This document shows, piece after piece, positions 11,572 to 18,500 of a stretch of 64,000 nt of DNA (position 1 is the stretch's first letter; every line of letters starts with the position of its first letter). Made by a program: the position numbers and the translations under genes. The notes beneath the pieces were generated by a model. It made no database searches. It saw only the letters and a program-made list of their open reading frames with translations, and was not told the DNA's origin. This stretch comes from Candidatus Neomicrothrix sp. UBA881 (lineage in GTDB: Bacteria > Actinomycetota > Acidimicrobiia > Acidimicrobiales > MedAcidi-G1), in assembly GCA_002294285.1 (NCBI GenBank), contig DBFL01000087.1, forward strand, positions 19,972 through 83,971, written 5' to 3'.

Positions 11572-12069
11572 GTGGATTTAAGGTTCAGGGTATTTTTCTC
11601 TGATCCTGAAAGCAGTCTTATGGATATTGAAAACATTGTTGACAGGATTGAAATAGAGAACTTCTTTTCTCGATATGCGCGTGCTGTAGATGATAGAGAC
11701 TGGGAACTTTACAGAACATTGTTTACTGAAGATGCACACATCGATTACTCCTCTTCTGGTGGTTCAAAAGGAAATTTAGATGAAACTGTCTCATTTTTAT
11801 CAAAGGCCCTAGACATGTTTGAAATGTCTCAACATCTGATTACTAACATTGAGTTGTTTCACAAAGATGAGAATGCAGTTCACGCTGTTGCACTCTTTAA
11901 TAACCCCATGCGTCTTAAGGGCGGAGATGTCTGGTTTGTGGGCGGAAAATACAAACATGAATTGCTTAGATCAGCTTCCGGTTGGAAGAGTGAGAAACTA
12001 ATTGAGGAAACTCTTTGGTTTGACAGATCTCCCTTTGGAGATCTCACTGGTAATAAAAAAGAAGAGTGA
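11572..12069 (+). CDS. SnoaL/NTF2-like domain protein
   Basis: 165 residues from a GTG at 11572, or 149 from ATG 11620. The N-terminal helix IENFFSRYARAVDDRDWELYRTLF followed by ED and DY is typical of the SnoaL-like/ring-hydroxylating-dioxygenase-beta-like cone fold, then a sheet ending LIEETLWFDR. Proteins of this fold are small isomerases, dehydratases or cyclases, or have no catalytic role. TATAAC at 11561-11566 would place a transcription start near GTG 11572, favouring that start, but the domain itself fits ATG 11620. Function is not assigned. Confidence 0.65.
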   Translation: MDLRFRVFFSDPESSLMDIENIVDRIEIENFFSRYARAVDDRDWELYRTLFTEDAHIDYSSSGGSKGNLDETVSFLSKALDMFEMSQHLITNIELFHKDENAVHAVALFNNPMRLKGGDVWFVGGKYKHELLRSASGWKSEKLIEETLWFDRSPFGDLTGNKKEE

Positions 12070-12075
12070 TTTTCA

Positions 12076-12816
12076 TTGACAAATAACCGTGATGAACGTC
12101 GTTACAGAAAATGGGAATCAGATCATGAGAAACGAGGAACGAGTGAACTGATACCAGCCGCAACTGTTGTAATTATGCGTGATTCTGAATCTGCGATTGA
12201 GCTTTTAATGTTGAGAAAAAATTCTAAGGTTGCTTTTGGTGGCATGTGGGTTTTCCCTGGCGGCAAGATTGACGAAATTGATAAAGTTTTTGATTCGACC
12301 GGTAATCTCGATGAACTGCCGACGGCAGTAAATGCCGCTGTGAGAGAAACTTTTGAGGAATCATCCATTTCTGTTGCACAAGAGAATCTGGTTTGGTTTT
12401 CGCATTGGGTCCCACCACCTATTACTCCCAAGAGATTTTCAACATACTTTTTTGCAACAGATTTTTCAGACGACGATCAAGTGGTTATTGATGACTCTGA
12501 GATAATTGAACACAAATGGTTCCGTCCTGGTGAGGCAATAGCTTTACGTGATAAGGGCAAAATAGAGTTGGCGCCACCTACGTGGATGACTTTGAATCTT
12601 CTTTGTCTTTTTACCAGTGTTGAAAGCGCGTTGAGTGAACTCAAAAACCGTGAACCGCTTTTCTATGAAACTCGTATAGGCCAATCTGAAAAAGGACCAG
12701 TTGCTATGTGGTTTGGGGATGCAGGTTACGAAAATGGGAACCCTGAAATCGCCGGAGATAGACATAGGTTGACAATGTCTGAAAATGGCTATCATTTTGA
12801 ACAGTCAACCACCTAG
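12076..12816 (+). CDS. Nudix hydrolase, NUDT19-like
   Basis: 246 residues from a TTG start; no other in-frame start precedes the domain and GAAGAG lies 9 bases upstream. The Nudix box is split by an insertion: FPGGKIDEID (from residue 60) and then AVRETFEESS (residues 88-97), so the usual spacing of seven between the first Glu and REUxEE is about twenty. That insertion is known in the NUDT19/RP2 group, which cleaves CoA and acyl-CoA pyrophosphate bonds. A role in CoA turnover would suit the many acyl-CoA genes nearby, but this is inference from the fold only. Confidence 0.75.
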   Translation: MTNNRDERRYRKWESDHEKRGTSELIPAATVVIMRDSESAIELLMLRKNSKVAFGGMWVFPGGKIDEIDKVFDSTGNLDELPTAVNAAVRETFEESSISVAQENLVWFSHWVPPPITPKRFSTYFFATDFSDDDQVVIDDSEIIEHKWFRPGEAIALRDKGKIELAPPTWMTLNLLCLFTSVESALSELKNREPLFYETRIGQSEKGPVAMWFGDAGYENGNPEIAGDRHRLTMSENGYHFEQSTT

Positions 12817-17966: not shown

Positions 17967-18434
17967 TCAGCCATGTGAACGAATTACAGATAGAACTTCA
18001 TCGCCATGAGTCTGAAAATCTTTAATTGCGTCTTGATCCCAAATAGCTGCTATCAAACCGTCGGGAGAAATCAAGAAACTTGTTCGCATGCAAAAACCCG
18101 CAGCAGGGTCATCTGCCGGTCTAGCTGTTCCGTAGAGTTCTCCGATTTTTCTGTCTGAGTCTGAAATTAAAGAAAATGAAAATCCCTGCTCATCGGCAAA
18201 TTTCTTTTGCTCTTCTACTGTGTCAAAACTGGCACCAACAACAACTGCTCCCAATTCTGAAAATTCTGAGACTCTGTCACGGAGCCCCTGTCCTTGCATC
18301 GTTCAACCAGGCGTTGATGCTTTGGGGTACCACCAGAACAATACCCAGCTTCCTGAAAGGTCTTCTAAAGACAATATGTTGCCGTTCTGATCTGGAGCTG
18401 AAAATTTCGGGGCTTCACTTCCAATCTCAAGCAT
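17967..18434 (-). CDS. bcp: Bcp-type peroxiredoxin, predicted selenoprotein (UGA = Sec44)
   Basis: 155 residues if the in-frame TGA at 18305-18303 is read as selenocysteine. The frame starts at ATG 18434 with an AAGGAG ribosome-binding site. Residues 1-43 are a normal Bcp N-terminus (EIGSEAPKFSAPDQNG, then VLFWWYPKASTPG). The TGA falls exactly where the peroxidatic Cys of the PxxxTxxC motif belongs (P37, T41, U44), and the frame continues through the rest of the fold, with the active-site Arg in FCMRTSFLISPDG (R117). There is no Cys five residues later, so the enzyme is of the one-Sec type. A SECIS-like hairpin lies at 18268-18288. Bcp reduces hydroperoxides. A conventional call would start at Met46 and lose the active site. 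A nonsense mutation is the alternative but is less likely at this codon. Confidence 0.82.
18268..18288 (-). promoter_or_regulatory. Predicted bacterial SECIS hairpin in the peroxiredoxin mRNA
   Basis: In the mRNA, nucleotides 15-21 after the UGA (GGGGCUC) pair with nucleotides 29-35 (GAGUCUC), giving 7 bp including two G-U pairs, around a 7-base loop CGUGACA. The loop starts 22 nt after the UGA and has G as its second base followed by U. This fits the known bacterial SECIS form: a stem-loop within the coding region, apical loop roughly 16-37 nt downstream, with a G at one of the first two loop positions for SelB binding. Confidence 0.7.
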
Positions 18435-18500
18435 GACTCTCCTTTTCTTTTCTATTAGCGACCATAGCTCTTTATCGAGTAGATGAATATCTTTTAGCCA

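Follow-up and report, generated by a model that had tools for sequence, protein, structure and literature searches.

The window, i.e. the whole stretch of 64,000 nt from Candidatus Neomicrothrix sp. UBA881 that was analysed here, carries on its minus strand a peroxiredoxin gene of the Bcp/PrxQ type (Table 1). The frame runs from ATG 18434 to the TGA stop at 17969–17967 and is broken once, by a TGA at 18305–18303. Reading through this codon yields a product of 155 residues in which U occupies position 44, within PKASTPGUT. The spacing P37-x3-T41-x2-U44 puts the UGA at the peroxidatic position of PxxxTxxU, where the initial annotation had seen it, and the motif has the form given for selenocysteine (Sec)-containing peroxiredoxins (Sec-Prx) in a passage of PMC13188914.

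Table 1. Location of the peroxiredoxin gene and of its elements in the window
Feature	Position	Strand	Remarks
Bcp/PrxQ-type peroxiredoxin gene	17967..18434	-	155 codons plus stop; in-frame TGA, very probably for Sec
TGA, very probably the Sec codon, at peroxidatic residue 44 (PxxxTxxU)	18303..18305	-	74 of the 75 non-duplicate loci have TGA, the remaining one TGC
Shine-Dalgarno-like AGGAGAG	18437..18443	-	shortly before ATG 18434; from the sequence
Stem-loop, predicted bacterial SECIS	18268..18288	-	arms 18288-18282 and 18274-18268, loop CGUGACA 18281-18275

The AhpC-TSA/Bcp fold is complete upstream as well as downstream of the UGA, as had been claimed from the translation. The Pfam AhpC-TSA profile covers residues 4–130 of the read-through protein (2e-33 in a profile search), an AlphaFold model of all 155 residues reaches a mean pLDDT of 97.1, and the solved structures that match this model best are mostly Bcp/PrxQ proteins. 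Residue 44 lies near the start of helix 42–53 in the model. The 110-residue ORF taken alone matches AhpC-TSA at profile positions 46–123 only. With the NCBIfam model for thioredoxin-dependent thiol peroxidases the 155-residue protein scores 109.3 bits, below the cut-off of 140, and with NF040737 (peroxi_PrxU) 53.3 bits, below the cut-off of 270, which places it outside that family.

TGA is otherwise an ordinary stop here, ending 21 out of the 60 window genes that were picked by eye from the ORF list; this part of the initial annotation holds. A simple frame check of 61 window ORFs flagged four others as possible further hidden Sec genes, none of which was convincing; two of the four are the two sides of a single junction. 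At 11572–12816 of the window, an ORF ending with TGA 12067–12069 is followed by an in-frame NUDIX-like ORF (labelled by eye) at 12076. These are probably adjacent genes, though the frame stays open across the TGA.

The genome has the Sec-decoding trait: selA, selB, selC and selD were all found in the assembly (79.88% complete, 95 contigs), each over its curated cut-off, as the reading of the TGA as Sec had demanded. The selA gene (386.7 bits) and the adjoining selB (307.8 bits) are located on contig C42, the gene for tRNA-Sec (66.1 bits) on C86 and selD (369.3 bits) on C13. ARAGORN independently calls the same tRNA as tRNA-SeC with the anticodon tca. The selD gene (G000 contig C13, L018) itself has one internal in-frame TGA, in GAGUGCK, which brings the likely selenoprotein genes of this genome to at least two.

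For a comparison among relatives, 87 loci were collected by similarity to the window gene, 30 from an order-wide search, for which more matches are listed than loci are given, and 57 from a genome collection. Twelve whose sequence around the site exactly matched that of another locus were dropped, leaving 75 non-duplicate loci with the window copy included. Among these 75, which are mutually related and were selected by similarity to the query, codon 44 is TGA in 74 and TGC in one (L034), and neither TAA nor TAG occurs. The other loci share 39–90% identity with the window protein. T41, T45, R52 and R117 are invariant (75/75) and P37 is found in 70 of the 75. Cys homologues, namely L034 (TGC) and the proteins P0012–P0015, align their Cys to the UGA position, so that the alternation of Cys and Sec at residue 44 proposed as a check is indeed seen. 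In 20 lower-ranking regions picked by hand, codon 44 is TGA nine times, TGC nine times, TGT once and TCA once; two of the nine TGA regions (L123, L124) share their sequence around the site with loci included above. Lower in the order-wide ranking most matches contain no stop. The single TCA, which puts Ser at the peroxidatic position, belongs to L110 (G071), and selA is over the cut-off in that genome. Among the named carriers of the gene, most are MAGs under the labels Acidimicrobiales, Acidimicrobiaceae, Acidimicrobiia, Microthrix or Actinomycetota; one Acidobacteria record and two Planctomycetota records also occur. L049–L053 point to a marine member of the Acidimicrobiales close to MedAcidi-G1 as the probable source of the window.

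In the seven relatives compared, third codon positions hold most of the differences, before as well as after the TGA; for L050 the counts at the first, second and third position are 5/6/20 before and 15/7/47 after it. One rival reading is a Cys codon that turned into TGA in a dead or misread gene. A change of TGC or TGT into TGA takes one base only, and in a single sequence such a TGA could be an error. But 74 of the 75 non-duplicate loci, from many assemblies, share this TGA, change downstream of it is biased towards third positions, and the stem-loop described below is under selection. A pseudogene or a sequencing error is therefore hardly credible.

The real product might also begin downstream of the TGA. 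An ATG at 18299 (residue 46) follows one codon after it and would give a protein of 110 residues that lacks the active site. The initial annotation had foreseen that automatic calling would yield just this form, and a public record of a relative (P0006, NCBI, 'hypothetical protein') is so annotated. However, Met46 is present in just three of the 75 loci (L019, L049, L051), the codons upstream of the TGA change mainly at third positions, and ATG 18434 is preceded by AGGAGAG, which confirms the ribosome-binding site noted there earlier. Such an internal start is thus extremely improbable.

The predicted SECIS stem-loop extends from the 15th to the 35th nt after the UGA, and 21 nt separate the UGA from the loop. 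The stem of 7 bp and the loop CGUGACA with G at position 2 stand as initially annotated, whereas the distance of 22 nt given for them is that of the loop start, the stem beginning at the 15th nt. Passages of PMC13188914 give as features of a bSECIS a small apical loop, 16–37 nt from the UGA, with G in its first two positions and frequently G or U next. The window sequence, in which the G at position 2 is followed by U, agrees with this description. In an Rfam scan the window had no hit above the gathering cut-offs. Since the element lies within coding sequence, synonymous codons resampled from the same genes served as controls. A complete stem (7/7) arose in 278 out of 20000 resamplings of the window sequence, so the lone stem is only mildly unusual, and it is the set of 74 sequences that excludes chance. 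All seven pairs are possible in 66 of these 74 in the better of two registers; over 2000 synonymous resamplings this number averaged 3.7 and never exceeded 11 of 74. Four of the 74 stay below six pairs in both registers.

The stem was further tested by aligning the 74 TGA sequences without gaps (columns 18–24 against 32–38, 68 distinct rows). Standard pairs fill 92.2% of the stem cells in the distinct rows, against 13–65% after a slide by one to three columns. Pair 22–34 is CG in 31 of these rows, UA in 28, UG in 7 and another combination in 2; pair 21–35 is GC in 43 and AU in 14. The covariation score of 0.382 compares with 0.246 after shuffling and was reached by none of 500 shuffles, and the number of cells changed on both sides likewise lies above all 500. 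Two of the five pair measures used in all show no excess over shuffling: pairs with two-sided change (3 against 2.9; 315 of 500 shuffles reach this value) and the count of further pair types (9 against 9.5; reached by 434 of 500). Unguided, RNAalifold recovered six of the seven pairs. The loop reads CGUGAYM in 73 of 74 sequences. Arg52 in the loop is encoded by CGT in 73 of 74 sequences, whereas only 39 out of 400 Arg codons elsewhere in the same genes are CGT, and the codon of the invariant Arg117 is CGT in two of 74. When 52 nt were folded freely, at least six of the seven stem pairs appeared in the minimum-energy structure of 56 of the 74 sequences; the other 18 fold otherwise.

Thus, the stem-loop downstream of the TGA is under selection, and the check for a SECIS suggested earlier comes out in favour of one by synonymous constraint and by pairing, with some exceptions. 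L027 and L097, both Sec genes of the main group, fold with a 5-nt loop instead. L119 (G063), L121 (G242) and L122 (G261), TGA genes of the main group outside the 75, form 3–4 of 7 pairs in both registers, and pairing is low also in the separate group L115–L118. Because of these sequences the element is not uniform, and we suspect that the divergent members represent register shifts of it. Four Sec genes keep a Cys at position 49 (L092, L098, L104, L105). All of them encode it by TGT and all have A at column 38; pair 18–38 is UA in exactly these four, which preserves the stem pair. Here a difference in the protein is matched by a difference in the RNA.

The same results bear on two further readings of the TGA. 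Under a variant code it would stand for Trp or Gly, and three ENA metagenome proteins of the same family (P0002, P0004, P0009) do have Trp at residue 44. These are probably cases in which the gene caller read TGA as Trp, and Trp at the peroxidatic position of a peroxiredoxin should abolish the enzyme. Together with the 21 of 60 window genes that end in TGA, the presence of a tRNA-Sec with the anticodon tca, of SelA and of SelB, and a stem-loop that would be left unexplained, this makes a variant code exceedingly unlikely. UGA is generally read through at a low level, and a near-cognate tRNA could insert an amino acid at residue 44 without selenium. But the selected stem-loop and the sel genes point to Sec, and it is Cys that replaces the TGA in the relatives L034 and P0012–P0015, so we give read-through of this kind next to no weight. 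The sel genes, the conservation of codon 44 and the constraint on the SECIS together support the Sec-peroxiredoxin proposed in the initial annotation: TGA 18305–18303 almost certainly codes for Sec, its insertion being deduced from these features, and the product would then be a selenoprotein of 155 residues belonging to the Bcp/PrxQ class.

The order was surveyed in 397 genomes, with the lists of matches and of selA copied by hand. At least 83 of these genomes have, among the matches listed, one that holds a single TGA (79 in the main group, 4 lower-scoring); for 38 of the 83 the DNA itself shows the TGA at residue 44, the rest being recorded as '1 TGA' inside the match. A selA gene over the cut-off is present in 77 of the 83 genomes with a listed TGA match and in 156 of the 314 others (Fisher p 3e-14). 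In the six listed TGA genomes without selA, tRNA-Sec is over the cut-off in five and selB in none. One TGA genome (G311, 74% complete) has none of selA, selB and tRNA-Sec over the cut-off. Altogether selA exceeds the cut-off in 233 of the 397 genomes, hence the use of Sec looks common in this order.

In a tree of 103 rows the Sec label needs five changes, and the starred branches force at least three. Among ordinary Cys PrxQ lies a second, separate set of PrxQ genes whose peroxidatic codon is TGA: L115 (G112), L116 (G347), L117 (G258) and L118 (G308). Cys49 is kept in three of these four, and the 7-bp stem is not formed (2–4 of 7 pairs). The two Sec groups are likely of separate origin. Inside the main Sec clade there are also non-Sec forms, namely L034 with P0013–P0015, L108 with L113 and, on long branches, L109 with L110. 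An AU test with residue 44 masked and nine long or distant rows left out (L027, L102–L105, L108–L110, L113) did not reject a single clade for the main Sec rows (p 0.381). L034, the Cys form, has 4 of 7 stem pairs, 6 of 7 in a shifted register, and CGA as its Arg codon. In view of this AU test and of the pair count in L034, a reversal from Sec to Cys was dropped as a firm claim. Tentatively, and with the odds somewhat against it, one may picture a one-Sec PrxQ clade without a conserved resolving Cys that was kept across an actinobacterial order (many members marine by record title, presumably aerobic), with Sec replaced by Cys in lineage f52 (G126), where selA and tRNA-Sec are retained. According to passages of a 2026 review (PMC13188914), aerobic bacteria rarely retain selenoproteins, and the changes from Sec to Cys on record concern primarily FdhA and SelD. 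If true, the kept clade and the reversal in f52 would contradict both statements as worded in those passages.

The product most likely is a 155-residue peroxidase made by SelB-dependent insertion of Sec, with an activity predicted from its sequence. As the conserved element suggests, SelB carrying Sec-tRNA would bind the downstream stem-loop (nt 15–35 after the UGA), and UGA 18305–18303 would for this reason be read as selenocysteine. By analogy with the peroxiredoxin family, Sec44, located close to where the active-site helix begins, would attack the peroxide and become a selenenic acid; P37, T41, U44 and R117 make up what we take to be the expected peroxidatic set. An outside thiol may then reduce the oxidised Sec44 directly, in a one-Sec cycle. 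In the atypical 2-Cys PrxQ enzymes a resolving Cys stands five residues after the peroxidatic one. This Cys49 is absent from 71 and present in 4 of the 75 loci, and the window protein differs from the atypical 2-Cys type by its Gln49. As there is no conserved second Cys, an external thiol should reduce the enzyme. C115, the sole other Cys of the window protein, was considered as a resolving residue and rejected: it lies two residues before the invariant Arg117, and the position is Cys in one of 75 loci, the window's own, and Pro in 64.

Thioredoxin with thioredoxin reductase appears as the likeliest reductant, a candidate to which we would give about an even chance. It is favoured because a thioredoxin (partial, at a contig end) and a thioredoxin reductase were found over their cut-offs, close together on contig C73, and because in this 80%-complete assembly mshC of mycothiol synthesis gave a weak partial match (22.9 bits against a cut-off of 485.1) and mycoredoxin no match. 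No thiol partner beside the gene was recognised by eye among the 14 most recurrent ORF clusters at the 45 named non-duplicate loci; the commonest of these clusters, the gene itself aside, is an aldehyde dehydrogenase upstream (15 loci), and a CoA-transferase lies downstream at 12 loci.

What looks like a broken gene very probably turns out to be a conserved selenoprotein, with a TGA-containing match of the main group in at least 79 of the 397 genomes of the order. Automatic annotation misses genes of this type, giving either a fragment of 110 residues without the active site (P0006) or a catalytic Trp (P0002, P0004, P0009). Furthermore, this single-residue peroxidase exists in nature with Sec and with Cys, so that the kinetics of the two forms can be compared.

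That Sec-containing peroxiredoxins are known from bacteria, as the initial annotation had remarked, is documented by marine surveys. Passages on the Sargasso Sea selenoproteome (PMC1088965) give Sec-Prx (COG1225 Bcp, TxxU) as its second most abundant family with 43 genes, those on the GOS selenoproteome (PMC2398784) count 253, and the family is tabulated in parts of PMC9312934 and PMC13188914. The window protein resembles these, as far as those passages describe them, by its assignment to COG1225/pfam00578 and its TxxU site. For the survey sequences those passages name neither a host taxon nor a resolving Cys; the named carriers of the window type are mostly MAGs of Acidimicrobiales or other actinobacteria, and Cys49 is missing from 71 of its 75 loci. 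Members of the window type may well be among the Sargasso and GOS survey sequences. In the open-licence PMC literature, judged by titles and the openings of abstracts, no Sec-Prx was found tied to Acidimicrobiales.

In its fold the window protein is close to the Cys enzymes of the Bcp/PrxQ class, such as Xanthomonas campestris PrxQ and M. tuberculosis BcpB, with TM-scores (query) of 0.89 to 5epf and 0.86 to 5ima, but it has Sec for the peroxidatic Cys and no Cys at position 49. With AhpE of M. tuberculosis (1xxu, by its title a 1-Cys peroxiredoxin) it shares the fold (TM-score 0.87) and, going by this title, a single catalytic residue. AhpE is 25% identical to it and comes after the Bcp/PrxQ entries in the rankings by fold and by sequence. 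A Sec-containing peroxiredoxin was reportedly described by Sohling in 2001 from Eubacterium acidaminophilum, and the window protein is like that enzyme in being one; the PrxU model of NCBIfam (NF040737) presumably covers it. Summarizing, the gene is a well-supported new addition to the known Sec-Prx enzymes, whose description from marine samples dates back to 2005.
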